This document shows positions 3,273-46,418 of a stretch of 64,000 bases of DNA, one piece after another. Every line of letters begins with the position of its first letter. Within the stretch, counting starts at the first letter, position 1. A program made the translations under genes and the position numbers. A model generated the notes under the pieces. It was not told where the DNA came from. It worked only from the letters and a program-made list of their open reading frames with translations, and did no database searches. Origin of the DNA: Brevundimonas naejangsanensis DSM 23858 (GTDB lineage: Bacteria > Pseudomonadota > Alphaproteobacteria > Caulobacterales > Caulobacteraceae). Where the stretch lies: contig NZ_ATXN01000003.1 in NCBI RefSeq assembly GCF_000421705.1, forward strand, positions 67,001 to 131,000, read 5' to 3'.

Positions 3273-3295
3273 CCTCAATGCGCCGAACGCGAAGC

Positions 3296-4972: not shown

Positions 4973-5002
4973 GACAAGCTCCCCTGTCGTGTTGACAAGT
5001 GA

Positions 5003-5032: not shown

Positions 5033-5035
5033 GCG
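5021..5035. promoter_or_regulatory. Short inverted repeat overlapping the -35 region, possible HTH operator
   Basis: CGCTT-ACGTC-AAGCG, 5-bp arms around a 5-bp centre, covers the -35 hexamer of the promoter above. A repressor bound there would block that promoter. The site is too short to be sure. Confidence 0.35.
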
Positions 5036-5076
5036 ACTTTTACATCGCGACAAGCAGATTTTCCGTTATTTCGAAT

Positions 5077-5871
5077 TCAGCCTTGAAAATCAGGGATCCA
5101 GTCGGGCTTCGCGACCCGCACGGAGCGGCCCTCGACGGTCAGGTCGCCTTCCATGCGGTCCAAGCGCATCAGGGCGATGGCGCGCCCCTCGGCGCCGGTC
5201 ATGACTTCGCCCGCCCGCAGGTCGCCGTTCAGCACCTCGGCGCCGCGTTCGGGGGCGGGGCCGTCGAAGGTGATGGCCATCATGCGGTTCTTGATCGTGC
5301 CGCGCCGCTTCATCCGCGAGGTCGTCTCCTGACCGATGAAGCAGCCCTTGTGGAAGTCGATGCCGTTCAGCAGGTCGAAGTCCGCCTCGATCGGATAGGT
5401 CTTGTCCTGCAGCGTGTCGGCTGTGGGATCGGGCACGCCCAGCGTCAGGCGGTGCGCCTGCCAGTCGGCCTCTGTCGCGTCGGTCTCGCTCTGATCTCCC
5501 CAGCGGCGGCCGCCCAGCGCCGGCAAGCGGGGATCATCGACAAAGCCGTCCGGCCTCTCGGCGCCCCAGGCGACGAAGACAGCATCGGGAATCGCCATCA
5601 CATCCACGCTGGAGCGCAGCCTGTACATCGACAGACGCTGGAGCAGGGCGTCGCGCCGGTCGGCCGCCACATCCAGAATGACGCCATCCTCCTCGCCCCA
5701 GATGAACAGGTCGAACATCAGGCGTCCCGGCGGCGAAAGCAGAGCGCCGAAGCGCAGTTCGCCGGGCTGCAGCGTCTCCACGTTCTGGGTGAGCAGATTA
5801 TGCAGGAAAGGGCGGGCGTCGGGGCCGCTGATGCGGATCAGGGCGCGACTGTCGAGGCGGGCGATAGGCAT
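5077..5871 (-). CDS. ygfZ: YgfZ/GcvT-domain folate-binding protein
   Basis: 264 aa cytoplasmic protein of the YgfZ family, which helps assemble or repair certain iron-sulfur enzymes in a tetrahydrofolate-dependent way. The diagnostic K-G-C-x-I-G-Q-E motif is intact at residues 175-182 (KGCFIGQE). The GcvT-like N-terminal half is recognisable (LIRISGPDARPFLHNLLTQN, then GALLSPPGRLMFDLFIW). Length and motif fit the alphaproteobacterial members. It is transcribed away from ppdK with 225 bp between the two genes. Confidence 0.9.
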   Translation of the reverse strand: MPIARLDSRALIRISGPDARPFLHNLLTQNVETLQPGELRFGALLSPPGRLMFDLFIWGEEDGVILDVAADRRDALLQRLSMYRLRSSVDVMAIPDAVFVAWGAERPDGFVDDPRLPALGGRRWGDQSETDATEADWQAHRLTLGVPDPTADTLQDKTYPIEADFDLLNGIDFHKGCFIGQETTSRMKRRGTIKNRMMAITFDGPAPERGAEVLNGDLRAGEVMTGAEGRAIALMRLDRMEGDLTVEGRSVRVAKPDWIPDFQG

Positions 5872-5965
5872 AAGGCCTAGATAGGCGGCCCGAGCCGCTT
5901 CCTCCAGTGCGTCACGCCGCGCCTCGGCCTTGCCGTACGAAACATCCCCTCACGGATTGTTGCAA

Positions 5966-5991
5966 CTGCAGCCTCGCCTTCGCAGGTGCAG
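5966..5991. other. Hairpin in the ppdK upstream region
   Basis: CTGCA and CCT on one side pair with AGG and TGCAG on the other, an 8-bp stem with one bulge, between ygfZ and ppdK. It is not a tRNA and has no U-tract. Role unknown. Confidence 0.3.
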
Positions 5992-6096
5992 CGCGCTAGT
6001 GAGGGCGTCCGTAAGGCGGGACTCAGAATATACCCGCACCCTTCTACATATGCGGGGCTGGGACCCGCAGTCAGACCACGGTTCAGGAACTGCGAA

Positions 6097-8787
6097 ATGA
6101 CCAAGTGGGTGTACGGCTTTGGCGGCGGATCCGCTGACGGCGACGCTTCGATGAAGAATCTTCTCGGCGGCAAGGGGGCGAACCTGGCCGAGATGTCGTC
6201 CCTCGGCCTGCCGGTGCCGCCGGGGTTCACCATCACCACCGAGGTCTGCACCTGGTATTACGCCAATGAAGAGACCTATCCGACCGACCTGACCGATCAG
6301 GTCAAGGCGGCCCTCGCCCACGTCGAGGGCGTGGTGGGCAAGACCTTTGGCGACGCCGCCAACCCCCTGCTGGTCTCGGTGCGCTCGGGCGCCCGCGCCT
6401 CCATGCCGGGCATGATGGATACCGTCCTGAACCTGGGCCTGAACGACCAGACGGTCGAGGGTCTGGCCAAGCTGTCGGGCGACCGTCGCTTCGCCTTCGA
6501 TTCCTATCGCCGCTTCATCACCATGTATTCCAACGTGGTTCTGGGTCTGGGCCACGACTATTTCGAAGAGGTGCTGGACGACCACAAGGATCGTCTGGGC
6601 GTCTCGGTCGACACTGAACTGACCGCCGAGAACTGGGAAAAGGTGGTCGCGGACTACAAGGCCTTGGTCGAGCGCGAACTGGGCAAGCCCTTCCCGCAGG
6701 ATCCCCAGGCCCAGCTGTGGGGCGCTGTCGGCGCCGTGTTCGAAAGCTGGATGAACGACCGGGCGAAATTCTATCGCCGCATGCACGACATCCCCGAAAG
6801 CTGGGGCACGGCCGTCAACGTCCAGTCGATGGTGTTCGGCAACATGGGCGAGACCTCGGCCACCGGCGTCGCCTTCACCCGCAACCCCTCGACGGGCGAG
6901 AACAAGCTGTACGGCGAGTTCCTGATCAACGCCCAGGGCGAGGACGTGGTGGCCGGCATCCGCACGCCGCAGTCGCTGACCAAGGCGGGCCGCGAGGAGA
7001 TGGGCGAAACGGCTCCTTCGATGGAAGAGGCCATGCCTGAGGTCTTCGCCCAGTTCGTCGACGTAGTGGGGCGGCTGGAAAGCCACTACCGCGACATGCA
7101 GGACATCGAGTTCACGGTCGAGCAGGGCCGCCTGTGGATGCTGCAGACCCGCAACGGCAAGCGCACGGCCAAGTCGGCGCTGAAGATCGCCGTGGATCTG
7201 GCTTCGGAAGGCGTCATCTCTCAGGACGAGGCGGTCAGCCGCGTCGAACCGGCGGCGCTGGACCAGTTGCTGCACCCGACGCTGGACCCCAAGGCGGCGC
7301 GCACCGTGGTGGCGGCGGGCCTGCCCGCCTCGCCGGGTGCAGCGACCGGCAAGATCGTCTTCGACGCCGACGAGGCGGAACGTCTGGGCCAGCAGGGCGA
7401 CGCCGTCATCCTGGTCCGCGACGAGACCAGCCCCGAAGACATCCACGGCATGCACGCGGCGCGCGGCATCGTCACGGCGCGCGGCGGCATGACCAGCCAC
7501 GCGGCGGTGGTGGCGCGCGGCATGGGGCGCCCCTGCGTCTCGGGCGCGGGCGAAATCTCGATCGATGAGAAGGCCGGGACCTTCACCGCGCGCGGCCGCA
7601 CCTTCAAGGCGGGCGAGGTCATCACCATCGACGGCGGCAAGGGCGAGGTGCTGGACGGCGCCGTGGCCATGATCGAGCCGGAGCTGACGGGCGATTTCCA
7701 GACCCTGATGGGCTGGGCCGACGGCATCCGCCGCCTGAAGGTCCGCGCCAACGCCGAGACCGCCCTGGACGCCAAGACCGCGCGCGGCTTCGGCGCCGAG
7801 GGCATCGGCCTGTCGCGCACCGAGCACATGTTCTTTGACGACGACCGCATTGCGGCGGTGCGCGAGATGATCCTGGCCGATGATGAGGCGGGCCGTCGCG
7901 CCGCCCTGGCCAAGATCGCGCCGTTCCAGAAGGCCGATTTTATCGAACTCTTCGCGATCATGAGCGGTCTGCCGGTGACCGTGCGTCTGCTGGACCCGCC
8001 GCTGCACGAGTTCATCCCGCACACCGAGGCTGAAATCGACGCCCTGGCCGCGCATCAGGGGCTGGACGCGGCCAAGCTGAAGCGTCGGGCCAAGGAGCTT
8101 CAGGAAACCAACCCCATGCTAGGCCATCGCGGCTGTCGCCTGGGCGTGGCCTATCCGGAAATCTATGAAATGCAGGTCCGCGCCATCCTTGAGGCGGCGC
8201 TGCAGGTGAAGGCGTCCACCGGCGTCGCCCCGATCCCGGAGATCATGCACCCGCTGGTCGCCCTGGGTCTGGAGATGAAATATCTGCGCGAGCTGACCGA
8301 CCGCACGGCCAAGGCCGTCTTTGTCGAGGCGGGCGACAGCGTGGACTATCTGGTCGGCACCATGGTCGAACTGCCGCGTGCGGCCCTGCGCGCCGCCGAT
8401 CTGGCCGAGCATGCTGAATTCTTCAGCTTCGGCACTAACGACCTGACCCAGACGACCTTCGGCATCAGCCGCGACGATTCCGGCCGCTTCTTGCAGGTCT
8501 ATCTCGACAAGGGCATCTTCGAGAACGACCCCTTCGTTCGTCTGGACCAGAACGGCGTAGGCGACCTGATCCGCATCGCCGAGGAGCGCGGTCGCGCGGC
8601 CAAGCCGGGCATGAAGATGGGCATCTGCGGCGAACATGGCGGCGACCCGTCGTCCATCGCCTTCTGTGAAGAGGTGGGGCTGGACTACGTCTCCTGCTCG
8701 CCCTACCGCGTGCCGATCGCCCGTCTGGCGGCGGCGCAGGCGGCGCTGGCCGCCCGTTCGGGCGTAGAGCGCGAGAAGGACCGCTAA
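6097..8787 (+). CDS. ppdK: Pyruvate, phosphate dikinase
   Basis: 896 aa cytoplasmic enzyme interconverting pyruvate + ATP + Pi and PEP + AMP + PPi. It has the full set of domains: the N-terminal ATP-grasp domain (GGKGANLAEM, then VSVRSGARASMPGMMDT), the swivelling phosphohistidine domain with GGMTSHAAVVARGMG (catalytic His about residue 468), and the C-terminal PEP/pyruvate barrel (TNDLTQTTFG, and GICGEHGGDPSS with the catalytic Cys about residue 844). The start at 6097 gives the conserved MTKWVYGFGGG beginning and has AGGA eight bases upstream; the longer in-frame extension looks like non-coding leader. A strong terminator follows. With the pckG gene at the right edge of the window it fits PEP/pyruvate node metabolism. 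Confidence 0.97.
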   Translation: MTKWVYGFGGGSADGDASMKNLLGGKGANLAEMSSLGLPVPPGFTITTEVCTWYYANEETYPTDLTDQVKAALAHVEGVVGKTFGDAANPLLVSVRSGARASMPGMMDTVLNLGLNDQTVEGLAKLSGDRRFAFDSYRRFITMYSNVVLGLGHDYFEEVLDDHKDRLGVSVDTELTAENWEKVVADYKALVERELGKPFPQDPQAQLWGAVGAVFESWMNDRAKFYRRMHDIPESWGTAVNVQSMVFGNMGETSATGVAFTRNPSTGENKLYGEFLINAQGEDVVAGIRTPQSLTKAGREEMGETAPSMEEAMPEVFAQFVDVVGRLESHYRDMQDIEFTVEQGRLWMLQTRNGKRTAKSALKIAVDLASEGVISQDEAVSRVEPAALDQLLHPTLDPKAARTVVAAGLPASPGAATGKIVFDADEAERLGQQGDAVILVRDETSPEDIHGMHAARGIVTARGGMTSHAAVVARGMGRPCVSGAGEISIDEKAGTFTARGRTFKAGEVITIDGGKGEVLDGAVAMIEPELTGDFQTLMGWADGIRRLKVRANAETALDAKTARGFGAEGIGLSRTEHMFFDDDRIAAVREMILADDEAGRRAALAKIAPFQKADFIELFAIMSGLPVTVRLLDPPLHEFIPHTEAEIDALAAHQGLDAAKLKRRAKELQETNPMLGHRGCRLGVAYPEIYEMQVRAILEAALQVKASTGVAPIPEIMHPLVALGLEMKYLRELTDRTAKAVFVEAGDSVDYLVGTMVELPRAALRAADLAEHAEFFSFGTNDLTQTTFGISRDDSGRFLQVYLDKGIFENDPFVRLDQNGVGDLIRIAEERGRAAKPGMKMGICGEHGGDPSSIAFCEEVGLDYVSCSPYRVPIARLAAAQAALAARSGVEREKDR

Positions 8788-28537: not shown

Positions 28538-29746
28538 TCAGACCTCGTGGGCCTTGAGGCGGGTCGCAGGCCACAGGGCGGCGATCAGGATCAGACCGGC
28601 CGATACGGCGTAAGGCGCGCCGTGCGCCGCCTGATAGGCTAGGGTTCCCGCCAGCGGGCCCAGGACGGCGCCCAGACCCTGCGCAGCGCCCACGGCTCCC
28701 GCGGCGGCGCCTTGCTCATGGGCTTCGACGGCGTTGGCGGCGAGGGCCGACTGCGAGGGATAGACCCAGCCCATACCCGCCGCGATGACGCCATAGGCGA
28801 TCCATAGCTGCACCGGCGTAGCGGCGAAGACGGCGCCGATGAAGCCGAGAGCGGCGATGCCTGCGCCGATACGAATGAAGCGCGAGGGCGCCCAGCTTAA
28901 CCGGCGCAGCGCCATCTGCGAGGCGAACAGAACCACGCCGACCACGGCCAGGGCGATTCCCGCCGTGCGCGCCGCCTCATTGGGCGACAGGCCGAAGCGG
29001 TCCAGAGCCAGGAAACCGACCACCACCTGGCAGACGACGACGCCGCACATGGCGGCGAAGGCGGTGACGACGGCGCGGCGGATGCGCGCGTCCGACAGCT
29101 TCAGCGCCGACTTCCTGCGGGTCTCATGCGGCGCGTCGGCGGGCAGGAACCGCCACACGGCGATGAAGGCCAGGACGGGCAGGGCGGAGATGATGATCAG
29201 GGAGGCGCTGAGACTCCATCCGGCCAGCAGGCCGGCCCCACCCGGTCCGAAGACGATGCCCAGCGAACTAGCCGCGCCGACGGCGCCCATGGCGCGAGCG
29301 CGTTCGTGCGGCGCCGTGTGGTCGGCGACCACGGCGGCGCAGATCGGCGGCACGGCGGCGTAGAAGGCCCCGGCGGCGGTGCGCGCCGCCGTCATGCCCA
29401 GGAAGCTGACGATGGCCGCCGGAACCAGGGCCAGGGCCGTGCTCATGAACAGGCCCAGCGCCGCATAGCTGACGGCGAACCCGGCCAGGGCGATCAACAG
29501 CACCTTGCGCCGCCCGACCTCGTCGCTGCGCGCGCCCCAGAAGCGGGCCATCAGCATCCAGGCCAGGCCCGCCGCCGTCACCGCCGCTCCGACATGCCAG
29601 GGCTGCAGGCCCAGCAGCCGCGCCATCGGCCCGACCACGGCGACGAAGGCCATCATCGACATGCTGCCGACGCCCGCGGTGAACAGCAGGGGCTTCAGGC
29701 TGAAGGCGCCGCCGGGGGCTGCGACGGTCGTGGTGGCGGAAGTCAT
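28538..29746 (-). CDS. MFS transporter, candidate siderophore exporter
   Basis: 402 aa with 12 predicted membrane helices. The MFS loop 2-3 signature is recognisable as WGARSDEVGRRKVLL, and motif C-like glycines appear in SSLGIVFGPGGAGLLAG. It belongs to the drug/H+ antiporter group. A Fur-box-like palindrome lies 41-57 bp upstream of the ATG, a near equivalent precedes entC, and the gene borders the siderophore locus. An EntS-like export role is therefore inferred. AGGAG precedes the chosen ATG. The family call is sure; the substrate is not. Confidence 0.85.
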   Translation of the reverse strand: MTSATTTVAAPGGAFSLKPLLFTAGVGSMSMMAFVAVVGPMARLLGLQPWHVGAAVTAAGLAWMLMARFWGARSDEVGRRKVLLIALAGFAVSYAALGLFMSTALALVPAAIVSFLGMTAARTAAGAFYAAVPPICAAVVADHTAPHERARAMGAVGAASSLGIVFGPGGAGLLAGWSLSASLIIISALPVLAFIAVWRFLPADAPHETRRKSALKLSDARIRRAVVTAFAAMCGVVVCQVVVGFLALDRFGLSPNEAARTAGIALAVVGVVLFASQMALRRLSWAPSRFIRIGAGIAALGFIGAVFAATPVQLWIAYGVIAAGMGWVYPSQSALAANAVEAHEQGAAAGAVGAAQGLGAVLGPLAGTLAYQAAHGAPYAVSAGLILIAALWPATRLKAHEV

Positions 29747-29786
29747 GAGACGCTCCTGAACGGGATGGAGCGGCTTGATCGGATAA

Positions 29787-29803
29787 TTGAGAACCAATTG
29801 CAA
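29787..29803. promoter_or_regulatory. Fur-box-like palindrome upstream of the MFS gene
   Basis: TTGAGAACCAATTGCAA, an imperfect 7-1-7 palindrome embedded in GATAATTGAGAACC sequence. It resembles alphaproteobacterial Fur sites and is the counterpart of the better palindrome before entC. Confidence 0.5.
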
Positions 29804-31210
29804 CTAGGGCTTGGCCATTGTGGCGGGCAGGGCCAGTTCCACCGCCAGACCCGGCTGATTGTCCTCCAGCCGCAAGTCGCCGCCGTGCGCCCGCGCGACA
29901 GCGGCCACCATCGCCAGACCCAGCCCTGCGCCCGAGGCGTGGCTGTTCTCGCCCTGATCCAGGCGATAGAAGCGGCGCAGGATCTTTTCGCGTTCGGCTT
30001 CCGGCACGCCGGGGCCGTGGTCGGCGACGCGGACGACCGCCCTGCCGTCTGCGCTGGACGTTGAGACCGCGACCTGGCCGCCGCCGTGGAAGACGGCGTT
30101 CTCGATCAGATTGGCCAGGGCCTGTTGCAGCAGAGCGGGGTCGGCCTCGACCGTTCCGGCCGGGGCGAGGGTGGCGGCCAGACGCCCGCCCGCTTCTTCG
30201 ACAAAGGGGCTGTAGATGTCTGCCACGGCGCCGGTCAGGACGGCGAGGTCCAGCGGTTCGGTCTTCAGGGCGGCGTCGCCGCTTTCGATCCGCGCCAGCG
30301 TCAGCAGGGCCTCGAACAGGGCGCTGACCTGATCAGTCTCCTCAAGCGCGCGTTCGACGGCGGCTTCACGCGCTTTGGCGTCATTCAGATTGGCGGCCAG
30401 ATCCTCCAGCCGGTTGCGGACCCGGTTCAGAGGCGCGCGCAGTTCATGGGCCACGCCCTCGGACAGGGTCTTCAGCGTCGTCAGCGCCGCCTCCTGCCGG
30501 TCCAGCATCCGGTTGAGGTTGGCTGATAGTTCGTTGAACTCCCGCCCCAGGCCGACAGCGGGCAGGCGGGCCGAATCCTGACCGGCGATGATGCGGCCGA
30601 CCGCCTGGTTGACGTCCTCCAGCCGCCGCAGGAACAGCCGTCCGGCGAACCAGCCGCCAGCCAGCGCCAGCAGGATCAGGGCGATCCCGCTCATCAGAGC
30701 ATAGCGACGGATGCCGCCGCGCAGTTCGTCCAGATGCTGGATGTCGCGTCCGACCGCCAGCAGGCCGCCATCGGACGCCCGCGCGCTCAGCGCCAGCATG
30801 TTGGGCGTCTGGTCGGGCCAACGGGCGGGGCGGGCCTTGTTGGGCAGGTTGCGGCGGAAGCCGGTCTCATTGACCGCCAGCCGCGTCAGGCCGTTGGAGA
30901 AGGTGCTGCCGTCCGGCGCCTCGACCAGCAGCAGATAGCGCCGGGCGTCGCGGTTGCGGGCTTCAGCGTTCAACTCCTGCACCAACTGGGCCGTGCCATG
31001 CCGGTTGGCGTCGGCGCGCATCACGTCCATCTGGTGGTTCAGCCCGTCGCGGACCTCGGCCTCGGCGAAGCGCATCAGGCCGTAGTCCACGCCCGCGATC
31101 ATCACCGCCGCGCCCAGGCCGAACAGGACCGAGAAGGCGGCGGCGTAGCGCAGGCTGGCCGTGGACCAGACCGACGGACGTTTCGGCTCAGTCCGGAGCC
31201 TTGAGGACAT
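29804..31210 (-). CDS. Sensor histidine kinase
   Basis: 468 aa: TM1 about residues 21-41, a periplasmic domain of about 125 residues, TM2 about 171-193 and a HAMP linker. The dimerisation helix has His255 in EGVAHELRAPLNRVRN (Ala replaces the usual Thr of HELRTPL). The ATPase domain shows NLIENAVFHG, DHGPGV and GAGLGLAMV. The 5' end overlaps the response-regulator gene by 23 bp. It lies between the MFS gene and the siderophore biosynthesis genes, so a link to metal or siderophore control is possible. The sensor domain itself gives no clue. Confidence 0.9.
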   Translation of the reverse strand: MSSRLRTEPKRPSVWSTASLRYAAAFSVLFGLGAAVMIAGVDYGLMRFAEAEVRDGLNHQMDVMRADANRHGTAQLVQELNAEARNRDARRYLLLVEAPDGSTFSNGLTRLAVNETGFRRNLPNKARPARWPDQTPNMLALSARASDGGLLAVGRDIQHLDELRGGIRRYALMSGIALILLALAGGWFAGRLFLRRLEDVNQAVGRIIAGQDSARLPAVGLGREFNELSANLNRMLDRQEAALTTLKTLSEGVAHELRAPLNRVRNRLEDLAANLNDAKAREAAVERALEETDQVSALFEALLTLARIESGDAALKTEPLDLAVLTGAVADIYSPFVEEAGGRLAATLAPAGTVEADPALLQQALANLIENAVFHGGGQVAVSTSSADGRAVVRVADHGPGVPEAEREKILRRFYRLDQGENSHASGAGLGLAMVAAVARAHGGDLRLEDNQPGLAVELALPATMAKP

Positions 31211-31865
31211 AGCCCACCCCCCGGATGGTGTGGATCAGCTCCTGATCGAAGCCACGATCGACCTTGGCCCGCAGGCGGCTGATGTGGGCGTCGATCAGAT
31301 TGGCGCGCGGGTCGAAGTGGAAGCCCCACAGGCTTTCCAGCAGCATGGTGCGCGTCACGGCGTGCCCGGCGTTGCGGGCCAGCCGCTCCAGCAGTTTGAA
31401 CTCGTGCGGGGTCAGGTCCAAGGGCTTGCCCGCGCGGGTCGCCCGGTGGGCGGCCACGTCGACTTCCAGGTCGGCCACCCGATGCCGCGTCGTGGCCTCG
31501 GCCAGCGGCGGGCGTCGGACCAGCGCCTGAAGGCGCGCGCTCAGTTCGCTGAAGGCGAAGGGCTTGACCAGATAGTCGTCGGCGCCCGCGTTCAGCCCCG
31601 CCACCCGGTCGTCGACCGAGCCCAGCGCCGTCAGCATCAGCACCGGCGTTTTCAGGCCGCTCGCGCGCATGGCCTGCACCGCTTCCAGGCCGGGCAGGCC
31701 GGGCATCATGCGGTCGGCGACGATGGCGTCGTACTCGCCCTCCATCGCCATGTGCAGACCCGTCTCGCCGTCGTTCGCCTCATCGACCGTATGCCCTTGC
31801 TGGCGCAGGCCTTCGGCCACGAAGGCGCGGGTTCGGGCATCATCGTCAATGACAAGCATTCGCAT
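31188..31865 (-). CDS. OmpR-family response regulator (CusR/PcoR-like)
   Basis: 225 aa, receiver plus winged helix. The acidic pair is in VIDDDA, the phosphoacceptor Asp51 in IVADRMMPGLPG, and the Lys in DDYLVKPFAFSEL. The DNA-binding end reads NLIDAHISRLRAKVDRGFD and LIHTIRGVGYVL, close to the CusR/PcoR/IrlR group, often metal-responsive. Two ATGs six bases apart (31865, 31859) are both possible. It is divergent from entC across a 140-bp spacer that includes the Fur-box-like palindrome, so it may affect both directions. Confidence 0.9.
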   Translation of the reverse strand: MRMLVIDDDARTRAFVAEGLRQQGHTVDEANDGETGLHMAMEGEYDAIVADRMMPGLPGLEAVQAMRASGLKTPVLMLTALGSVDDRVAGLNAGADDYLVKPFAFSELSARLQALVRRPPLAEATTRHRVADLEVDVAAHRATRAGKPLDLTPHEFKLLERLARNAGHAVTRTMLLESLWGFHFDPRANLIDAHISRLRAKVDRGFDQELIHTIRGVGYVLKAPD

Positions 31866-31962
31866 GAGCGCCCTTCTAAACCTCTGCAGCGAAACGACCA
31901 GACCGGCTTGGAATTAATCTCGCCGCAAGACAACGCGAAGGTTGCTCCGCTATAGGCCGGTT

Positions 31963-31981
31963 GTTGCGAATGATATGCAAC
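31963..31981. promoter_or_regulatory. Fur-box-like palindrome upstream of entC
   Basis: GTTGC-GAATGATAT-GCAAC, 19 bp with perfect 5-bp terminal arms and the TGCGAAT half-site known from alphaproteobacterial and xanthomonad Fur boxes. It lies 24 bp before the entC ATG, a position suited to iron-dependent repression. Confidence 0.65.
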
Positions 31982-32005
31982 AGCTTGAGTGCGGCAGGGA
32001 CCAGC

Positions 32006-33261
32006 ATGGAGTCGAGAGTAGCGGAATTCTGGGGGGCGCCCGATCTGTCGGTTCAGATCGGCGGCGGCGCATCCGAACGGCAAGAGGCCGCCGCGCCGAA
32101 GGACGACATGGACTGGGCTTTTGGACTGACCACGCCGGAGCTTCGGCTCTTCACCACGGGTCTGAAGCAGCGCCTGACGCCGGGACCGGCGGCGACGCTG
32201 GGCGCGCGGGTGCGCCGCTTCTTCGCTGACCTGCCCGTCGCGCCGGAAACCGATGAGCCGTCACCGCGCCTGCTGGTCGGCGCCTTGCCGTTCGACCGCA
32301 AAGCCGACGACTGCCTGTTCCTGCCCGAGCGCGCGGCCAACCGCATCTGGGATATGCCTTCAAGCGCGTCTCATCCGTCGATCCGCGCCCTGACGCCCGA
32401 GCCGTCGCGCGCGGCCTATGAGGCGGCTGTGACGCAGGCGCTTGAGGCCATGCGCGCCTCGCAAGGCGGCGCCGAGCCGGTCGACAAGGTGGTGCTGTCG
32501 CGCAGCCTGAAGGTTCAGGGCGACGGCGCGATCGACCCCTTCGCCCTGTGGCGCGACCTGAAAGCCGACCCGACCGCCGCTCGCTTCCTGACGCCGCTGG
32601 GTGAAGGCCAAAAAACAGGACAGGGCGGGGCCATGCGCCGTCTGGTCGGCGCCACGCCCGAACTGCTGGCGTCCAAGCGCGGCCCGGTCGTCTTCTCTCA
32701 CCCTCTGGCCGGATCAGCTCGCCGCAGCACCGACGTTGTGCAGGACGAGGCGGCGGCGCAGAGTCTGCTGGCGTCCGACAAGGACCGCCGCGAGCACGCC
32801 CTGGTGGTCGAGGCCATCATGGACCTGCTGGCGCCCTACTGCAGCGACCTGCGCGCGCCGCCGGGACCGGCGCTCGTGTCGACGCGGACCATGTGGCACC
32901 TGGGCACCCGCATCGAGGGGCGACTGCATCGCCCCGACGAAACCTCCGCCGCCGAACTTGCCGCCCTGCTGCATCCGACGCCCGCCGTCTGCGGCTCGCC
33001 GCGCGACCGGGCGGCCGAGATGATTCACGCGCTTGAAGGCTATAACCGGGGCTTCTATGCCGGGGCCGTGGGCTGGACCAACGCTTTCGGCGATGGCGCA
33101 TGGTACGTCTCGCTGCGCTGCGCCGAGACGTGCGGCGATCAGGCGCGTCTCTACGCCGGGGCGGGCATTGTCGAAGGTTCCGACCCCGCCGCCGAGGCGG
33201 ACGAGACGTCAGGTAAGTTCCAGGCCGTCCTGCGCGCACTGGGCGTGGATGAGGCGAGCGT

Positions 33262-33265
<4 letters not shown>
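32006..33265 (+). CDS. entC: Isochorismate synthase
   Basis: 419 aa chorismate-binding enzyme converting chorismate to isochorismate, the first step of 2,3-dihydroxybenzoate (DHB) synthesis. Family blocks are intact: [65 protein letters not shown] and [12 protein letters not shown]. The ATG at 32006 has AGGGA upstream and gives a normal N-terminus; a TTG further upstream would place the coding region across the Fur-box-like site. It overlaps entE by ATGA and is the first gene of the siderophore operon. Confidence 0.94.
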
Positions 33266-34886
<1,621 letters not shown>

Positions 34887-34890
<4 letters not shown>

Positions 34891-35534
34891 GCGTCTCCAA
34901 AGGTTTGCCCACCGTCCCCGCCTATGCCCTGCCGACCGAGGCGGAGATCCCCGCCTCGCGCGCCCAGTGGACGTTGCAGCGTGATCGCGCCGCCCTGCTG
35001 GTCCACGACATGCAGCACTATTTCATGCGCCCCTATGCGCCGGGCGCCGAGCCGCTGCCGGGCCTGATCGCCAACATCGCCGGGCTGATCGCGGCGGCGC
35101 GGGCGGCGGGCGTTCCCGTCTTCTACACCGCCCAGCACGGCGATCAGGATCGCCGCGACCGGGGCCTGCAGGCCGACCTGTGGGGACCGGGCATGAGCCG
35201 CGCGCCCGAGCATGAAGAGATTTTGCCTGAACTGACCCCGGCGCCAGGCGACTTCCCGCTGGTCAAGCACCGCTACAGCGCCTTCCAGCGCAGCAATTTC
35301 GAGACGCTGATGCGCGTGCGAGGGCGGGACCAGCTGATCGTCTGCGGCGTCTACGCCCACATCGGCTGCCAACTGACGGCGGCCGAGGCGTTTCAGCGGG
35401 ACATTGAACCCTTCTTCGTCGCCGATGCGCTTGGCGACTTCTCGCGCGACAAGCATATGGGCGCGGTGGCCTGGGCCGCCGACACCTGCGCCGTGGCCCT
35501 TTCAACGGCGCGCGTTCTGGAACGACTGAAATGA
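34887..35534 (+). CDS. entB: Isochorismatase, EntB N-terminal half only
   Basis: 215 aa, GTG start. It hydrolyses isochorismate to 2,3-dihydro-2,3-dihydroxybenzoate. Close likeness to the EntB isochorismatase domain: [10 protein letters not shown] (catalytic Asp41), [22 protein letters not shown] (Lys127), [12 protein letters not shown] and [14 protein letters not shown]. coli EntB is about 285 aa because it continues into an aryl carrier domain. Here the protein ends after the isochorismatase and the carrier is a separate gene that starts in the ATGA overlap. The catalytic set is complete. Confidence 0.94.
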
Positions 35535-35794
35535 CCAAGCTGACCCCGCAGGATCTGACGCTGGAGCGGATGCGCGCCGATGTCGCCGCCGTGCTGCACG
35601 AAACGCCGGACTCCATTCTGGACGACGACAATCTGATGGATCTGGGCGTCGACTCCTTGCGCGCCCTCAACCTGTCTCTGGCGTGGAGCGAGGCTGTGCC
35701 GCTGGAGTTCAGCGAACTGGCCGAGCACACCACGCTCGCCGGTTGGTGGAGCGTGGTTCAGGCGCGACTGCGCGCCGCCGGTCACGACGCCTGA
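35531..35794 (+). CDS. Free-standing aryl carrier protein
   Basis: 87 aa acyl/aryl carrier domain. The phosphopantetheine site is Ser42 in MDLGVDSLRAL, with helix 2 following. The later part (FSELAEHTTLAGWWSVVQAR) matches the C-terminus of EntB-type ArCPs, including the WW near the end. It would carry DHB loaded by EntE and hand it to the condensation domain of the EntF-like NRPS. It overlaps the isochorismatase gene by ATGA and lies 9 bp before the NRPS. It is the missing carrier half of EntB as its own polypeptide. Confidence 0.92.
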   Translation: MTKLTPQDLTLERMRADVAAVLHETPDSILDDDNLMDLGVDSLRALNLSLAWSEAVPLEFSELAEHTTLAGWWSVVQARLRAAGHDA

Positions 35795-35803
35795 CCTGAT
35801 ATC

Positions 35804-39690
<3,887 letters not shown>

Positions 39691-39694
<4 letters not shown>

Positions 39695-40461
39695 GAGACA
39701 GCGGACTGTCCGGCCGTCTGGCCCTGGTCACGGGCGCGGGCGGCGGTATCGGCGCCGCCGTGGTGCGTCTGCTGGTCGAGGAGGGCGCGCGCGTGGTCGC
39801 CACCGACCTGCCGTCCACTGCCCTGTCGGGGCTGGCCTTCCTGAACGGCGTGCGGGTCGAGCCGCTGGACGTGTCCGACGGCGCGGCGGTCGAAGCTCTG
39901 TTCGACCGCATCGAGGCCGAGGACGGCCCGATCGACTTCGTGGCCAGCGTGGCGGGCGTCCTGTCCAATGTGACGGTGGATCAGACCTCCGACGCCGAGT
40001 GGCGCCGTGTGTTCGCGGTCAATACGGATGGGCCTTTCCACCTGGGCCGCGAGGTTTCGCGGCGGATGGGCGAGCGGGGCAAAGGGGCCTTCGTCACCGT
40101 CAGCTCTAACGCCGCAGGCGTGCCGCGTCATGCGATGGCGGCCTATGCGGCGTCCAAGGCCGCGGCGACCATGTTCACCCGCTGTCTGGGGCTGGAGCTG
40201 GGGCCCAAGGGCGTCCGCTGCAACATCGTCGCCCCCGGCTCGACCCTGACGCCGATGCAGACCGGCATGTGGGCCGACGATGACGGCGCCGCCCGCGTCA
40301 TCGCCGGTTCGCCGGAAACCTTTAAGGCCGGGATTCCGTTGCAGAAGCTGGCGACGCCGGAAGACATCGCAGAGGCCGTGGTCTTCCTGTTGTCGGATCG
40401 TGCGGCGCACATCACCATGACGGACCTCTACGTCGACGGCGGAGCGACCCTGCGCGCCTGA
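39691..40461 (+). CDS. entA: 2,3-dihydro-2,3-dihydroxybenzoate dehydrogenase
   Basis: 256 aa SDR that oxidises 2,3-dihydro-DHB to DHB with NAD+. The Rossmann motif is [13 protein letters not shown]. The EntA-like VASVAGVL replaces NNAG. The catalytic block is [24 protein letters not shown] (Ser, Tyr, Lys present), and [14 protein letters not shown] then [12 protein letters not shown] close the fold. That last block is shared with EntA/DhbA. The position at the end of the biosynthetic operon, in ATGA overlap with entF, supports the call. Confidence 0.93.
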
Positions 40462-40496
40462 CGCCGAGGCCGGTTTTTTACGGGGGCGTTTGGGTT

Positions 40497-42509
40497 TTGG
40501 ACATACAGCCGACGGTCGTTGACGAAGTCGTGGTCACAGCGGCGCGTCTGCCGCCGGCGGCGGGGGAGGCGGCCTTTTCGGTCGTGCGGCTGGATGGGCT
40601 TGCGTTGGATCGGTCGACGCGGCTGGACGAGGCGCTGGCCAGCGTGCCTGCGGTCTCCCTGTTCCGACGCACCACCAGCCTGTCCGCCAATCCGACGACG
40701 CAGGGGATATCCCTGCGCGCCATCGCGCCGTCAGGGGCGGGGCGGACGTTGGTGACTCTGGACGGCGTACCGCTGAATGATCCGTTCGGCGGCTGGGTCC
40801 TGTGGTCGCAACTGCCGACTGAGGCTCTGGAAAGCCTCGATATCGTACGCGGCGCGGGGGCCGGTCCCTATGGCGCGGGCGCCCTGACCGGGGTCATCCA
40901 ACTGCGCGAGCGAGAACGCGGCGGGGTGCTGGACGCCTCGATCGCCGAAAGGGGCGGGGCACGGCTGGCAGGCGCGGGCGGGCTCGACGCCGGCCCTCTG
41001 CGCCTGACGGGCTCGGCCCTTTATGAGACCAGCGACGGCTATACGCCCGTGCGCGGCGCGGCGGCCGGGACGGCGGACACGCCGCTGGATCTGACCACCA
41101 GGGCGGCGGCGCTGCGGCTGGACGCGCCGCTGGGCGAGGCCAGTCTGTCGCTGCGCGCCTCGGCCTATGACGAAGAGCGCGGCTCGGGCCTCATGGGGGC
41201 GCGGTCCAGCGCCAGCGGTCACCTGCTGTCGGCCACGGCGGCGAAGCGGCCGCAGGACGGCGACTATGGCTGGCGACTGCAGGCCTGGCGACGCGAAAGC
41301 GATTTCGCCAATACCTCCGTCGCGGTGGCGGCGGACCGCAACGCGACCACGCCCGCCAATGATCAGTATGAGACGCCCGCAACCGGCTGGGGCGTCAACG
41401 CCGCGCTGCGCCGCGCCTCGCGCGACGTGGCGGGCGGACGGCTGGAATGGGAGCTGGGCGCCGACGCCCGCTTCAACGAGGGCGAGACCCGCGAACGCTT
41501 CCGCTTCATGGACGGCGCCTTCACCCGCGACCGCATCGCGGGCGGCGAGACTGCAGTGGCGGGCCTCTACGGCGAGGCATCGTGGCGCAACGACCTGTGG
41601 CTGGTGGCCGGGGGCCTGCGTCTGGACAGCTGGAAGAATGAGAACGGCCGCCGTCTGGAGCGTGATCGGGCCGATGGAACGGCGACCCTGGACGAGGCCG
41701 ATACCGACCGCTCGGGCGAGGTGGTCAGCGCGCGTCTGGCGGCGCGGCGCTTCCTCGGCGGCGGCTGGGCGGGGCGGGCGGCGGCCTATTCCGGCTTCCG
41801 CCCGGCGACGCTGAACGAACTGCACCGCCCGTTCCGGGTCGGCAACGACCTGACCGAGGCCAACGCCGCCCTGGTTCCCGAGACCCTTCAGGGCGTGGAG
41901 GCGGGGCTGGCCTATGAGGGGCCGATCGCGGCCTTCGGCGCGACCCTGTTCTGGAACCGGATCGAGGACGCCATAGTCAATGTGACCATCGGCGAGGGGC
42001 CGGGAACCTTCCCGCGCGCAGGCTTTGTTCCGGCCGGCGGCGTGCTGCGTCAGCGTCAGAACGCCGGGACCATCCAAGCGACAGGGATCGAACTCACGGC
42101 GCGCCGCAGCCTGCCCGGCGGTCTGAGTCTGGACGGCGCCGTTTCCGTCACCGACGCCCGCATGGACGGCGGTTCGGCGGCGCCGCAGCTGACGGGCCTG
42201 CGTCCGGCCCAGGCGCCGATCTGGAGCGCCACGGCCGGGCTGGACTGGCGCGCCGGCGAACGCCTGACCCTGGCGGCCCAGGCCCGCTATGAGAGCAAGC
42301 GATTTGAAGACGACCTGAACAGCCGTGTTCTGGGCGCTGCGGTAGTGGTGGACGCCCGCGCCGAATGGCGGATAACGCCCGCCGCCATGATCTGGGCAGC
42401 CGCCGACAACCTGTTCGACGAAGCGGTCGAGGTGTCCGAGACTGGAACCGGCGTCGAGGGCTACGGCCCGCCGCGCACCCTGCGGCTGGGCGTCCGCTGG
42501 ACTTACTGA
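40497..42509 (+). CDS. TonB-dependent outer-membrane receptor lacking a visible signal peptide
   Basis: 670 aa. The plug (SLRAIAPSGAGRTLVTLDGV, then GAGAGPYGAGALTGVIQL) and 22-strand barrel are complete, and the C-terminus RTLRLGVRWTY fits a TonB receptor. TVVDEVVVTAAR near the N-terminus serves as a TonB box. The only start available in frame is TTG at 40497, which puts the TonB box at residue 6 with no signal peptide before it, and no upstream in-frame sequence is signal-like. A six-T run lies between entA and this gene. As the last gene of the operon it is the expected ferric-siderophore receptor, but as read it would not be exported. Confidence 0.85.
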   Translation: MDIQPTVVDEVVVTAARLPPAAGEAAFSVVRLDGLALDRSTRLDEALASVPAVSLFRRTTSLSANPTTQGISLRAIAPSGAGRTLVTLDGVPLNDPFGGWVLWSQLPTEALESLDIVRGAGAGPYGAGALTGVIQLRERERGGVLDASIAERGGARLAGAGGLDAGPLRLTGSALYETSDGYTPVRGAAAGTADTPLDLTTRAAALRLDAPLGEASLSLRASAYDEERGSGLMGARSSASGHLLSATAAKRPQDGDYGWRLQAWRRESDFANTSVAVAADRNATTPANDQYETPATGWGVNAALRRASRDVAGGRLEWELGADARFNEGETRERFRFMDGAFTRDRIAGGETAVAGLYGEASWRNDLWLVAGGLRLDSWKNENGRRLERDRADGTATLDEADTDRSGEVVSARLAARRFLGGGWAGRAAAYSGFRPATLNELHRPFRVGNDLTEANAALVPETLQGVEAGLAYEGPIAAFGATLFWNRIEDAIVNVTIGEGPGTFPRAGFVPAGGVLRQRQNAGTIQATGIELTARRSLPGGLSLDGAVSVTDARMDGGSAAPQLTGLRPAQAPIWSATAGLDWRAGERLTLAAQARYESKRFEDDLNSRVLGAAVVVDARAEWRITPAAMIWAAADNLFDEAVEVSETGTGVEGYGPPRTLRLGVRWTY

Positions 42510-42946: not shown

Positions 42947-43843
42947 TCAGGACATGGGCGGGGGAGGCGGCGTGCGGTCCGGCGGCAGGGGGATGAACTC
43001 CTGATCATCCATGTCGGGCAGCTTCATGCGCCCGGCGCGCCAGTCGGCCTTGGCCTGTTCGATCCGATCCTGCGACGAGGAAACGAAGTTCCACTCGATG
43101 AAACGCTCTCCCACCGGCTCGCCGCCCAGCACCATGACGGTGGTCGGCTGCAGGGCGTGGATGACCGATGGCGATCCCTTGGACAGCACCGCCATCTGGC
43201 CGTGGCCTAGGGGCCTGCCGCCGTCGATTTCGACCAGCCCCTGAACGACGTAGACGGCGCTTTCGGAATGGTCGGTCGGGGTCTGGAAGCGGGCGCCGGG
43301 CTCAAGCTCCAGATGCATATAGTGCAGGGGCGAGAAGGTGCTGACGCCCGCCTTCATGCCCATCGTTTCACCCGCGACCAGACGGCCTTTGACGCCGTTC
43401 TCGATCCAGGTCGGCAGGTCGCCGGGCACAACGTGCTGGAAGGAGGGATCGATCTCTTCCTGCCCATTGGGCAGGGCGATCCAGGCCTGGATGCCTTCAA
43501 GACGTAGGCCCTCCATCCGCGCCCGCTCGAAGCGTTCGGAGTGGGTGACGCCGCTGCCGGCGGTCATCCAGTTGACCTCGGCCGGGCGGATGTCCTGTTG
43601 GACGCCCAGACTGTCGCGGTGGGTGATCTCGCCGTCGAACAGATAGGTCAGCGTCGAGATGCCGATGTGCGGGTGCGGGCGCACGTCGACCGTCTTGGGA
43701 ATACCGGCGGGCATGTCGACCGGGCCCATGTGGTCGAAGAAGACGAACGGGCCGACCATGCGACGCTTGGCGTAGGGCAGGACGCGGCCGACCTCGAAGC
43801 CGCCGAGGTCCTTGCGGCGCTGGTCGATGATGAGTTCGATCAT
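42947..43843 (-). CDS. Pirin family protein
   Basis: 298 aa bicupin. The N-terminal pirin domain has VGPFVFFDHMGPVDMPAG, the metal-ligand segment VRPHPHIGISTLTYLF then GEITHRDSLG, and AEVNWMTAGSGVTHSE, the core Pirin signature with its three His and one Glu. The C-terminal cupin follows (SAVYVVQGLVEIDG). Bacterial pirins include quercetinases and redox-linked regulators; the substrate is unknown. AAGGAGG precedes the ATG. A GC-rich hairpin separates it from the next pirin gene on the same strand. Confidence 0.92.
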   Translation of the reverse strand: MIELIIDQRRKDLGGFEVGRVLPYAKRRMVGPFVFFDHMGPVDMPAGIPKTVDVRPHPHIGISTLTYLFDGEITHRDSLGVQQDIRPAEVNWMTAGSGVTHSERFERARMEGLRLEGIQAWIALPNGQEEIDPSFQHVVPGDLPTWIENGVKGRLVAGETMGMKAGVSTFSPLHYMHLELEPGARFQTPTDHSESAVYVVQGLVEIDGGRPLGHGQMAVLSKGSPSVIHALQPTTVMVLGGEPVGERFIEWNFVSSSQDRIEQAKADWRAGRMKLPDMDDQEFIPLPPDRTPPPPPMS

Positions 43844-43903: not shown

Positions 43904-44776
43904 TCACGCTGCGGCGGGAATGTCGCCGAAGCGGCCGCTGTTGAAGTCCGTGATGGCGGTGCGGATTTCGTCCTCGTTATTCATCACGAAGGGGCCGTAG
44001 CCGACGATGGGCTCGTCGATCGGCTCTCCGGTCAGGATCAGCAGGGTCGTGTCCGCATCGGCGCTCAGGGTCACGCTGTCGCCCTGACGGTCCAGCAGCA
44101 GGGCCTCGGCGGCGCCCGCGGGCTGGTCGCCGTTGACGGTGACATGACCCGACAGAACCACCACCATGGCCGTGTGGCCTTCGGGCAGATCCAGCGTCGT
44201 CTCGGCGTCCCGGTTCAGCCGCACGTCCCACACATTGATGGGAGTGAAGGTCGTGGCCGGTCCTTTCGAGCCCTCCATCGCGCCGGCGATGATCCGCGCG
44301 GTTCCTGCATTGTCAGGCAGGGAAACGATCGGAATGTCGGCGTTCAGGATCGACTGGTAGCCGGGACGGGTCATCTTGTCCTTGGCGGGCAGGTTGACCC
44401 AGAGTTGAACCATGCGGAAGGGGCCGCCGGTGCGCGAGAAGGCCGGAGAATGGAACTCCTCGTGCAGGATGCCGCCGCCCGCCGTCATCCACTGGACGTC
44501 GCCGGGGCCGATGATTCCGCCCTGGCCGGTCGAGTCGCGATGCTCGACCTCGCCGTCATAGACGATGGTCACGGTCTCGAAGCCGCGGTGCGGATGCTGG
44601 CCCACGCCGCGCCGCTCGGTCGTCGGCTCGAAGTTGTAGGGACCGGCGTAGTCGAGCAGCAGGAAGGGGCTGACCTGTTTGCCCACGGCGTTGTAGGAAA
44701 ACAGCGAACGGACGGGGAAGCCGTCGCCGACCCAGTGGCCGCGGTCGTTGCCGTAACGGCCCAGAACCTTCTTCAT
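43904..44776 (-). CDS. Pirin family protein, second copy
   Basis: 290 aa bicupin of a different pirin subgroup from its neighbour. It starts MKKVLGRYGNDRGHWVGDGF. The core signature is FLLLDYAGPYNF, then GQHPHRGFETVTIVYDGEVEHRDSTG and GDVQWMTAGGGILHEEFHS with the metal ligands. The start at 44776 has GGAG upstream; an ORF extension beyond it is not pirin-like. It is divergent from the LysR gene and is a likely target of that regulator, as is common for pirin/LysR pairs. Confidence 0.92.
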   Translation of the reverse strand: MKKVLGRYGNDRGHWVGDGFPVRSLFSYNAVGKQVSPFLLLDYAGPYNFEPTTERRGVGQHPHRGFETVTIVYDGEVEHRDSTGQGGIIGPGDVQWMTAGGGILHEEFHSPAFSRTGGPFRMVQLWVNLPAKDKMTRPGYQSILNADIPIVSLPDNAGTARIIAGAMEGSKGPATTFTPINVWDVRLNRDAETTLDLPEGHTAMVVVLSGHVTVNGDQPAGAAEALLLDRQGDSVTLSADADTTLLILTGEPIDEPIVGYGPFVMNNEDEIRTAITDFNSGRFGDIPAAA

Positions 44777-44885
44777 GGTCTTGTCTCCATTCGTTGGATC
44801 GGCCGTTGGGGGCAGGGCCGATCGCGTTGAAGACTTTATGACTCTGGAACGCCGGGCTGGACAGATTGCGAAATCGCCTCGCTGC

Positions 44886-44901
44886 GTCCTATCAATAGGA
44901 C
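44886..44901. promoter_or_regulatory. Perfect inverted repeat masking the LysR gene's ribosome-binding site
   Basis: GTCCTAT-CA-ATAGGAC, 7-bp arms and a 2-bp spacer, ending one base before the ATG. The right arm contains the only Shine-Dalgarno-like AGGA. It could act as a DNA operator. Confidence 0.45.
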
Positions 44902-44902
44902 G

Positions 44903-45859
44903 ATGAGAGACCTCAACGACCTTTATTACTTCGTGCAGGTGGTGGATCACCTCGGCTTCGCCCCGGCGGCGCGGGCGCTGGGGATGCAGAAATCCAAGCT
45001 GAGCCGCCGCATCGCCGCGCTGGAAGACCAACTGGGCACGCGGCTGATCCAGCGCTCGTCGCGCAAATTTTCGGTCACGGAGATCGGCCAGGCCTATTAC
45101 CAGCACTGCCTCGCCATGCTGGTCGAGGCCGAGGCGGCGCAGGCCCTGATCGACGGCGCCCGGTCCGAGCCGTGCGGCACCATCCGCGTCGCCTGCGCGC
45201 CGGGTCTGCTGACCTATCAGATGAGCGGGCTGATCTTGCGCTTCATGGCCCTGTATCCCGAGCTGGAGGTGCAGCTTCACAGCACCAGCCGTCGGGTGGA
45301 CGTCATCGGCGAAGGGTTTGATCTGGCCATCCGCGTGCGCGAGCCGCCGCTGGAGCAGACCGATCTGGTCATGCGTAAACTGGACGAAAGCGTGCATCGC
45401 CTGGTCGCCAGCCCGGACCTGATCGCTCGCATGGGAGCGCCGACCGGTCCGGCCGATCTTGCAGGCTGGCCCAGCGTGGATTTCGGCCCGGCGCATCGCG
45501 ATCATGTTTGGGCCCTGCATCATAAGGAAGGCATGACGGCGTCAGTGCGTCATGCGCCGCGTCTGGTCACCGACGACCTGCACATGCTGCACGAAGGCGC
45601 CTTGAACGGCCTGGGCGTGGGCCTGCTGCCCAGCGTGGCGGTGATGCGCGACCTGGAGGCGGGGCGGCTGATCGACCTCTTGCCGGACTGGAGGCCCAAG
45701 AAGTGGATCGTCCACGCGGTCTTCCCGTCGCGGCGGGGGCTGCTGCCTTCGGTGCGCATGCTGCTGGATTTTCTGGTCGAGGGTTGCGCCGAGCAGCAAA
45801 TTCACGGCGAAAGGCTGTCGTCGCCTGATACGGCGACGCTAGCGGAGATGAAGGACTGA
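44903..45859 (+). CDS. LysR-family transcriptional regulator
   Basis: 318 aa. The N-terminal winged helix reads DLYYFVQVVDHLGFAPAARA then KSKLSRRIAALEDQLGTRLI, the common LysR pattern of the CrgA/DsdC-like group. The substrate domain follows (GTIRVACAPGLLTYQ, RRVDVIGEGFDLAIRVR, GLGVGLLPSVAV). It is divergent from the two pirin genes and is followed one base later by a flavin reductase gene. LysR proteins of this kind usually control the divergent gene. Inducer unknown. Confidence 0.92.
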   Translation: MRDLNDLYYFVQVVDHLGFAPAARALGMQKSKLSRRIAALEDQLGTRLIQRSSRKFSVTEIGQAYYQHCLAMLVEAEAAQALIDGARSEPCGTIRVACAPGLLTYQMSGLILRFMALYPELEVQLHSTSRRVDVIGEGFDLAIRVREPPLEQTDLVMRKLDESVHRLVASPDLIARMGAPTGPADLAGWPSVDFGPAHRDHVWALHHKEGMTASVRHAPRLVTDDLHMLHEGALNGLGVGLLPSVAVMRDLEAGRLIDLLPDWRPKKWIVHAVFPSRRGLLPSVRMLLDFLVEGCAEQQIHGERLSSPDTATLAEMKD

Positions 45860-45860
45860 G

Positions 45861-46418
45861 ATGCGTCTGGTCGGACTGTCGGGCAGCCTGCGGGCGGCCT
45901 CCTACAACAGCGCCCTGCTGCGCGCGGCGCAGGAGACGGCGCCCGCAGATGTGGAGCTGATCGCCGCGACCATCCACGGCATCCCTCTTTATGACGGCGA
46001 CCTGGAGGCCGAGCAGGGCCTGCCCGAGGCCGTGGTGGCGCTGAAGGATCTGATCGCCGGCTGCGACGGGCTGATGCTGTTCACGCCCGAATACAACAAC
46101 TCCATCCCCGGCCCGTTCAAGAACGCCATCGACTGGCTGAGCCGGCCCAGTTCAGACATCGGTCGGGTGTTCGGCGGGCGGCCGGTGGCGGTGCTGGGCG
46201 CCTCGCCTGGACCGTTCGGGACGCTGATGAGCCAGGCGGCCTGGCTGCCGGTGTTGCGCACCCTGGGCGCGGCGCCGTGGTTCGGGGCCAGGCTGATGGT
46301 CACACGCGCGGGCGACGCCTTCGACGCCGAAGGCCGCCTGATCGACGCGGATACGCGCCGACGGTTGACCGCCTTCGTCGCCGGTTTTGCGGACCACTGT
46401 CGGGGGGCTTCGGCATGA
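45861..46418 (+). CDS. NAD(P)H-dependent FMN reductase
   Basis: 185 aa flavodoxin-fold quinone/FMN reductase of the ArsH/YieF (ChrR) type. The flavin phosphate loop is GLSGSLRAASYNSALL, the second flavin contact FTPEYNNSIPGPFKNAIDW, then VAVLGASPGPFGTLMSQ. Members reduce quinones, chromate or azo dyes and limit oxidative stress, which fits the pirin/OsmC/LysR surroundings. It sits one base after the LysR gene and overlaps the GNAT gene by ATGA. Confidence 0.9.
   Translation: MRLVGLSGSLRAASYNSALLRAAQETAPADVELIAATIHGIPLYDGDLEAEQGLPEAVVALKDLIAGCDGLMLFTPEYNNSIPGPFKNAIDWLSRPSSDIGRVFGGRPVAVLGASPGPFGTLMSQAAWLPVLRTLGAAPWFGARLMVTRAGDAFDAEGRLIDADTRRRLTAFVAGFADHCRGASA

Follow-up and report, generated by a model that had tools for sequence, protein, structure and literature searches.

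The closest described system to the locus reported here is the entCEBB'FA cluster of Stenotrophomonas maltophilia (stenobactin; PMC12210187, PMC9769818), which, in the available parts of those reports, shares its six genes and their order, with the isochorismatase and the aryl carrier protein (ArCP) encoded separately. For strain K279a the product given in the available part of PMC12210187 is DHB-serine (DHB, 2,3-dihydroxybenzoate) and likely related molecules, not enterobactin, and EntB is described there as a single-domain enzyme that is needed for the siderophore of that species. The same text describes the isochorismatase and ArCP of the Streptomyces griseobactin dhb genes as separate, a likeness by description and not by sequence, and the EntB of Escherichia coli as carrying its ArCP; in Brevundimonas the two are separate genes. 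We analysed a 64-kb stretch of Brevundimonas naejangsanensis DSM 23858 (positions 67001–131000 of contig C3 in a genome of 3.16 Mb and 10 contigs; hereafter the window), in which EntC, EntE, EntB, ArCP, EntF and EntA are encoded in that order on the plus strand at 31961–40461. The nearest relative that was fetched is Brevundimonas diminuta 470-4 (L009), with an EntE 98% identical. An earlier note made from the letters of this DNA (the original prediction) had placed an enterobactin-type DHB-serine synthetase in a Caulobacterales chromosome, which holds.

EntD, MbtH (YbdZ), Fes and FepA belong to the E. coli enterobactin system, Bacillus DhbF is a two-module synthetase and the myxochelin-type synthetase MxcG has a terminal reductase instead of a thioesterase (TE). 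The enzyme set and the EntF architecture of the window are like those of E. coli, and the serine pocket is the same at the positions compared; however, no FepA-type receptor is linked to the cluster, and no EntD-type enzyme or MbtH was detected in the genome. In view of these two undetected helpers, the description of the locus as complete is not supported. Bacillus dhbACEBF (bacillibactin) provides the closest solved structure for EntE (1md9) and the best-scoring model for EntC (DhbC, below its cut-off), but the Brevundimonas EntF has one serine module, unlike DhbF. The MxcG layout is not seen here: the Brevundimonas EntF has a Thioesterase domain, and the MxcG model covers only its residues 11–1024 (model positions 4–1043 of 1442). 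The proteins of S. maltophilia LMG 978 (L068) are 50% (EntC), 67% (EntE), 64% (EntB), 69% (ArCP), 56% (EntF) and 66% (EntA) identical to those of the window. An MFS (major facilitator superfamily) gene precedes entC on the same strand in L068, whereas the Brevundimonas cluster has a divergent two-component system, and the L068 genome has an Sfp-type transferase, of which none was detected in this Brevundimonas genome.

Brevundimonas brasiliensis dhbA and dhbE have been listed as siderophore-synthesis genes among virulence-associated genes, and in the available part of that report only these two genes are named and no cluster, product or history is described (PMC10269605). Caulobacter crescentus has been described, in the available text, as not known to synthesize siderophores (PMC13001220). 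Among the matches listed in a search of the open-licence literature (titles and the starts of abstracts), no description of an ent cluster in Brevundimonas was found. Such loci are uncommon in Caulobacterales (EntE at E ≤ 1e-120 in seven of 398 genomes of the order: six Brevundimonas and one of another genus at 44% identity). The view that they are little described there is qualified by the dhb genes already listed from Brevundimonas.

The cluster is real, intact and of the S. maltophilia entCEBB'FA type. We consider it probable (about 0.78) that the set makes 2,3-DHB from chorismate and joins it to serine, and that the strain secretes a catecholate siderophore made up of DHB-serine and oligomers of it. 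The features are as follows (coordinates in the window, strand, description).

28538–29803, minus strand, MFS exporter, likely a siderophore exporter (MFS_1, 1.3e-44)
29804–31210, minus strand, sensor histidine kinase (HisKA and HATPase pass their cut-offs, HAMP falls slightly short)
31188–31865, minus strand, OmpR-type response regulator, divergent from entC (Response_reg and Trans_reg_C)
31963–31981, no strand, imperfect palindrome of 19 bp, candidate Fur site (TTGNGAWTGATAYGCAA)
31961–33265, plus strand, EntC/DhbC isochorismate synthase (TIGR00543)
33262–34890, plus strand, EntE/DhbE 2,3-dihydroxybenzoate-AMP ligase (PDB entry 1md9, TIGR02275)
34887–35534, plus strand, EntB single-domain isochorismatase without an ArCP domain (Isochorismatase, PDB entry 7l6j)
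35531–35794, plus strand, EntB'/ArCP stand-alone aryl carrier protein (PP-binding)
35804–39694, plus strand, EntF, a nonribosomal peptide synthetase (NRPS) with condensation, adenylation, thiolation and thioesterase domains (C-A-T-TE) and a serine pocket (PDB entry 5ja1, domain matches)
39691–40461, plus strand, EntA 2,3-dihydro-2,3-DHB dehydrogenase, with which the conserved unit ends on the right (TIGR04316, NF006074)
29826–40461, no strand, conserved 10.6-kb unit of histidine kinase, response regulator and entCEBB'FA, collinear in all nine other carriers compared
40497–42509, plus strand, TonB-dependent receptor without a signal peptide, probably a resident gene outside the cassette

All six biosynthetic genes lie where they had been predicted, with family and PDB matches far beyond chance. 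EntC scores 245 bits against the subfamily model TIGR00543 (cut-off 224.75), and ATG 32006 is a likelier start for it than TTG 31961. The best PDB match of EntE is the 2,3-DHB-AMP ligase 1md9 (1.6e-214), which we take to be B. subtilis DhbE, and the DHB-AMP ligases 1md9 and 6e8o rank above the salicylate ligase 5wm2. EntB matches Isochorismatase (4.3e-40) and, in the PDB, S. maltophilia EntB best (7l6j; 1.6e-84); it passes no NCBIfam model. The ArCP matches PP-binding (1.1e-8), and its carrier serine was read by eye in GVDSL. EntA is over both equivalog cut-offs (321.3 bits against 300 for TIGR04316 and 314.4 against 312 for NF006074). EntF (1296 residues) has the domains C, A, T and TE and matches E. 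coli EntF best among solved structures (5ja1; 2.2e-230); a single full-length tblastn match (1296–1306 residues) was obtained in each of 10 Brevundimonas loci. Aligned with the E. coli EntF chain, the EntF of the window has the same residues in its pocket (D, V, W, H, F, S, L, V and D and the A10 lysine), and the stretches FDVSVW, HFVPSM, VFCSGE and NLYGPTEAAVD match at the pocket positions. With these positions taken as those that form the pocket, and these letters as the code for serine, the residues read as the EntF serine code, as predicted. The TE motifs GWSVGG, LDS and LHP line up with the stretches that hold Ser, Asp and His in a solved thioesterase, and the TE serine that had been predicted is present.

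All six reading frames are open in the window. The genes had been described as fused by overlaps; four of the five junctions (C/E, E/B, B/ArCP and F/A) do overlap by four bases, but ArCP and EntF are separated by a gap of 9 bp, and the receptor gene follows entA after 35 bp. The predicted span, which started at 28538, also includes the MFS, histidine kinase and response regulator genes on the minus strand, divergent from entC, that were left out of its description. The G+C content of the unit (69.8%) is barely above that of its flanks (67.6 and 67.5%), so that composition says little. ARAGORN detected no tRNA in the window, and no repeats were seen at the unit edges in a comparison by eye with the carrier G084; no dedicated integrase, repeat or terminator search was run there.

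For the distribution of the cluster, genome contigs were scanned with EntE, which gave 350 confirmed stretches, and the best 80 were fetched as loci and compared. All six genes are present in 51 of the 80, and the order C-E-B-B'-F-A on one strand is found in 43 (in L015, entC is truncated at the end of its contig). Brevundimonas accounts for ten of the 43; the other 33 are from Rhizobium, Ectorhizobium, Ancylobacter, another member of the Xanthobacteraceae, Roseomonas-type Acetobacterales, Sphingobium, Breoghania, Neomegalonema, Luteimonas, other Lysobacteraceae, Xanthomonas and Stenotrophomonas (including S. maltophilia L068). Relatives with 60–80% EntE identity are held by 11 plasmid records, whose genera we take to be alphaproteobacterial. 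With the same gene set and order across so many genera, the system is not new. The original prediction described loci of this kind as well known in Enterobacteriaceae and Bacillus; they are common among other alphaproteobacteria as well. Within Brevundimonas the cluster is patchy, being confined to a minority of genomes: entA is found in 14 of 121 (12 of the 103 of good quality).

Nine of the other carriers among these 14 were compared with the window (470-4, sp. 357, 3F5N, ATCC 11568, MYb52, guildfordensis, bullata, nasdae and G084). The unit 29826–40461 is collinear in all nine at 77.5–93.8% DNA identity. The alignment stops at the entA stop codon, or within 13 bp of it, in eight; in 470-4 it continues through the receptor gene. 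On the left, DUF885-OmdA flanks the unit in the window, 470-4, G084 and guildfordensis, and a common 4.7-kb block takes this place in the other six. As these left flanks differ, a single site common to all carriers was rejected, although the right-hand neighbours of the window recur in sp. 357. In ATCC 11568 (L013) the block (1802–6586) is annotated with a YncE-like beta-propeller, a TonB receptor and a LysR regulator; the receptor matches CirA, PirA and FepA and has an apparent N-terminal signal peptide by eye.

The EntE tree (81 rows, quick method, unrooted, with support from the Shimodaira–Hasegawa-like approximate likelihood-ratio test, SH-aLRT, as the only measure) places the Brevundimonas rows in one group (support 100), together with one Bordetella-labelled row. 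With a single EntE group, one entry into the sampled carriers would suffice. Brevundimonas shares one side of the tree (37 rows, support 96) with Rhodobacterales, Hyphomicrobiales and Sphingomonadales; the opposite side holds the xanthomonads together with Acetobacterales, Burkholderiales and Rhodocyclales. An origin from Stenotrophomonas, which the gene order had first suggested to us, was rejected on this placement. The fork that places Brevundimonas inside its side is weak (53). The Bordetella-labelled row is from a contig of a metagenome-assembled genome (L014, JAFKFS010000175.1) that holds a Brevundimonas-type cluster with an EntE of 96% identity and the divergent two-component system; the label is probably due to mis-binning.

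In the proposed pathway, EntC, EntB and EntA would turn chorismate into 2,3-DHB. EntE would then charge the stand-alone EntB' with this acid, which EntF would probably couple to serine. By analogy with S. maltophilia, release may yield a mixture of linear and/or cyclic products and not mainly enterobactin. The MFS protein would export the siderophore, Fur and the two-component system may control the divergent promoter, and the ferric complex might return through an unlinked locus on contig C2 (L101) and not through the receptor that follows entA. EntB' and EntF would be phosphopantetheinylated by AcpS or by a transferase too divergent to detect.

Several observations weigh against this pathway. 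EntE scores 718.2 bits against TIGR02275, marginally under the cut-off of 723.55, and EntF reaches 859.7 bits with the NCBIfam EntF model NF007605, far under its cut-off of 2400. One B. diminuta isolate was siderophore-negative in a published screen, the available text of which does not give whether it carries the cluster (PMC4909027). In this genome no catecholate or FepA-type receptor is linked to the ent cluster, and the esterase relative at L101 scores 20.1 against Pfam Esterase (cut-off 22) and gave no NCBIfam match. Six-frame searches of nine Brevundimonas carriers, which cannot prove absence, detected no Sfp/EntD-type phosphopantetheinyl transferase, and MbtH (PF03621) had no match in the own genome, with control matches in E. 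coli and B. subtilis. If AcpS were unable to serve in place of such a transferase, the line would be dead.

That the line is indeed cryptic or defective, with carriers that stay apo and free 2,3-DHB (a weak catechol chelator) as the only compound released, is nevertheless improbable in our judgement. It would agree with the lack of Sfp/EntD-type matches to PF01648 in the nine carriers, with the lack of a 4PPT_N match in all 31 genomes searched, with the lack of a convincing match to an Sfp query in eight Brevundimonas genomes and with the missing MbtH. However, the six open frames and the collinearity of the unit in nine other carriers are not expected of a dead line, and six of 17 genomes of other genera likewise showed AcpS only, so that either AcpS is enough or divergent enzymes escaped detection. 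A line with authentic cyclic enterobactin as its chief product deserves more weight than a dead one, and is still unlikely. Cyclic enterobactin is the product to which the C-A-T-TE EntF with its catalytic motifs points, and a relative of ferric-enterobactin esterase and a CirA-like receptor are encoded in the genome; both of these may, however, serve foreign siderophores, and for S. maltophilia K279a, which carries this set of genes, the available part of PMC12210187 reports DHB-serine and likely related molecules. The statement that the strain makes a tri-catecholate was therefore an over-reading, since the closest system with a split EntB is reported there to give DHB-serine and not enterobactin. 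The product class is likely right, whereas the trilactone and a linked receptor are not established.

The TonB receptor at 40497–42509 could also be thought of as a cognate ferric-siderophore receptor recruited to the operon: it is on the same strand as entA, 35 bp after it, and has the same place in B. diminuta 470-4. We regard this as very improbable. Of the 81 Brevundimonas genomes in one draw, 73 have the family (61 among 68 non-carriers, 12 among 13 carriers), and in the nine other carriers the gene is directly 3' of entA in one (470-4) and not in the other eight; in sp. 357 the right-hand neighbours TonB-dependent receptor, OsmC and Pirin stand about 5.5 kb beyond entA. Two carriers, G084 (also without OsmC) and guildfordensis, have the same right-hand neighbours without the receptor. 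Matches to solved receptors are weak (FhuA, 1.2e-6, and CirA, 2.1e-4, at best), and no signal peptide was seen by hydropathy. A genus-wide family that is rarely found after entA, with weak matches to solved receptors and no signal peptide, is excluded from the siderophore system on these grounds; the gene is probably a resident one and not part of the cassette. The receptor follows the set, as the original prediction had it, but is probably not a member of it.

Signal peptides were judged from hydropathy and the position of the TonB box; 111 of 120 homologues were scored, and nine without a recognisable box were left unscored. In the 111 the box lies 1–31 residues from the start, and no stretch of nine residues exceeds a mean hydropathy of 1.57; two receptors that do have signal peptides reach 1.79 and 2.27. 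The sequence before the box could be read in 14 of 30 loci. Four of them (L140, L142, L153 and L147) have an in-frame stop 10–18 residues before the box, which leaves no room for a signal peptide. In the other ten the stretch before the box is open for 25–243 residues, and two of these, L136 (the window) and L146, contain a stretch there with a hydropathy of 1.62–1.8, though the TTG of the window gene has none of the usual start codons ahead of it. Loss of the signal peptide at the entA junction was considered and rejected, because the homologues are also without one. As an observation in its own right, Brevundimonas has a genus-wide family of TonB-dependent receptors without a recognisable N-terminal signal peptide.

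Candidates for uptake were found elsewhere. A receptor block lies to the left of the unit in six of the nine other carriers, and is FepA/CirA-like where annotated (L013). The genome of the window encodes two FecCD permeases, one at L101 (C2, ~1.43 Mb) and the other at L102. L101 combines the permease with a CirA-like TonB receptor (2hdf; 1.2e-98), a Peripla_BP_2 binding protein, an ATPase and a YncE-like propeller; the propeller and receptor are 29% and 32% identical to those of the L013 block. An esterase family search gave eight matches in the genome; the comparison with solved structures covered the match next to FecCD, whose closest relatives are BES (2qm0; 1.4e-12) and ferric-enterobactin esterase (6gi0; 1.8e-12), with a weaker match to IroE (2gzr; 2.1e-6). 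From these similarities L101 is likely an uptake locus unlinked to the ent cluster, which could serve the strain's own product or foreign siderophores.

In the search for a priming enzyme, the own genome gave one PF01648 (ACPS) match, of AcpS type, beside a gene that is presumably pdxJ. PF01648 was also run on 25 further genomes. All eight Brevundimonas among them showed AcpS only. The remaining 17 (15 with the six-gene order and two with only entE-ArCP-entF at the locus) divide into nine with an Sfp-type enzyme (one weak), two with an unclassified second match and six with AcpS only, the types being assigned by us; in the four Lysobacterales genomes the sole match is Sfp-type. An Sfp-type query from Ancylobacter oerskovii retrieved the enzymes of Stenotrophomonas, Luteimonas, Xanthomonas, Rhizobium lemnae and Acetobacteraceae AT-5844, but nothing in seven of the eight Brevundimonas genomes and, in the eighth, one match no better than chance (0.042) that contains stops. 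The 4PPT_N search (PF17837) covered the own and related genomes, and its control matched in three. An MbtH motif scan of the 80 loci gave two matches, of which the one in L057 is a plausible gene and that in L061 is not MbtH-like. It is tempting to read these results as a Brevundimonas NRPS line that works without EntD/Sfp or MbtH, with AcpS alone priming both the aryl carrier and EntF, and hence as a self-contained 10.6-kb cassette that could move between genomes and would need only chorismate, serine and the host AcpS; we hold this to be speculative and rather doubtful.

In Brevundimonas, a relative of C. crescentus, the patchy cluster provides a natural comparison of producers and non-producers within one genus, and an opening to study the priming of an NRPS line in genomes with AcpS as the sole transferase detected. 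Beyond that, it adds a further carrier to those known for the S. maltophilia-type cluster.

The MFS gene is a variable part of the cassette: of the nine other carriers, three have it in the alignment and six lack it at that position. Among 68 non-Brevundimonas loci, 32 have an MFS gene of 43–53% identity within the sequence that was fetched. Its match to the bacillibactin exporter BcbE (NCBIfam) is weak, at 31.5 bits with a cut-off of 600. The divergent two-component system belongs to the Brevundimonas version of the cluster. Its response regulator and kinase genes overlap by 23 bp, and homologues of the kinase with 67–100% identity occur in exactly the 14 entA carriers among the 121 Brevundimonas genomes (that of G051 has an internal stop codon); identity in the remaining genomes is at most 43%. 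The iron-related SbiT/SbiSR system of S. maltophilia (sbiTRS) was considered as its counterpart and rejected, as SbiT is a small membrane protein and Smlt2644–2646 lie away from entB (smlt2820). The promoter palindrome is kept in all 20 aligned rows, from 12 distinct strains, and is a candidate Fur site; the Fur site of C. crescentus is also a 19-bp palindrome in the available part of PMC3751524.

To the right of the receptor, the window encodes at 43904–45523 an open reading frame (ORF) of 539 residues with pirin domains at residues 271–533, which adjoins a second pirin gene (42947–43843). On the opposite strand to the pirin ORF are a LysR regulator (44903–45859), the ORF of which overlaps the long pirin ORF, and an FMN reductase (45861–46418).

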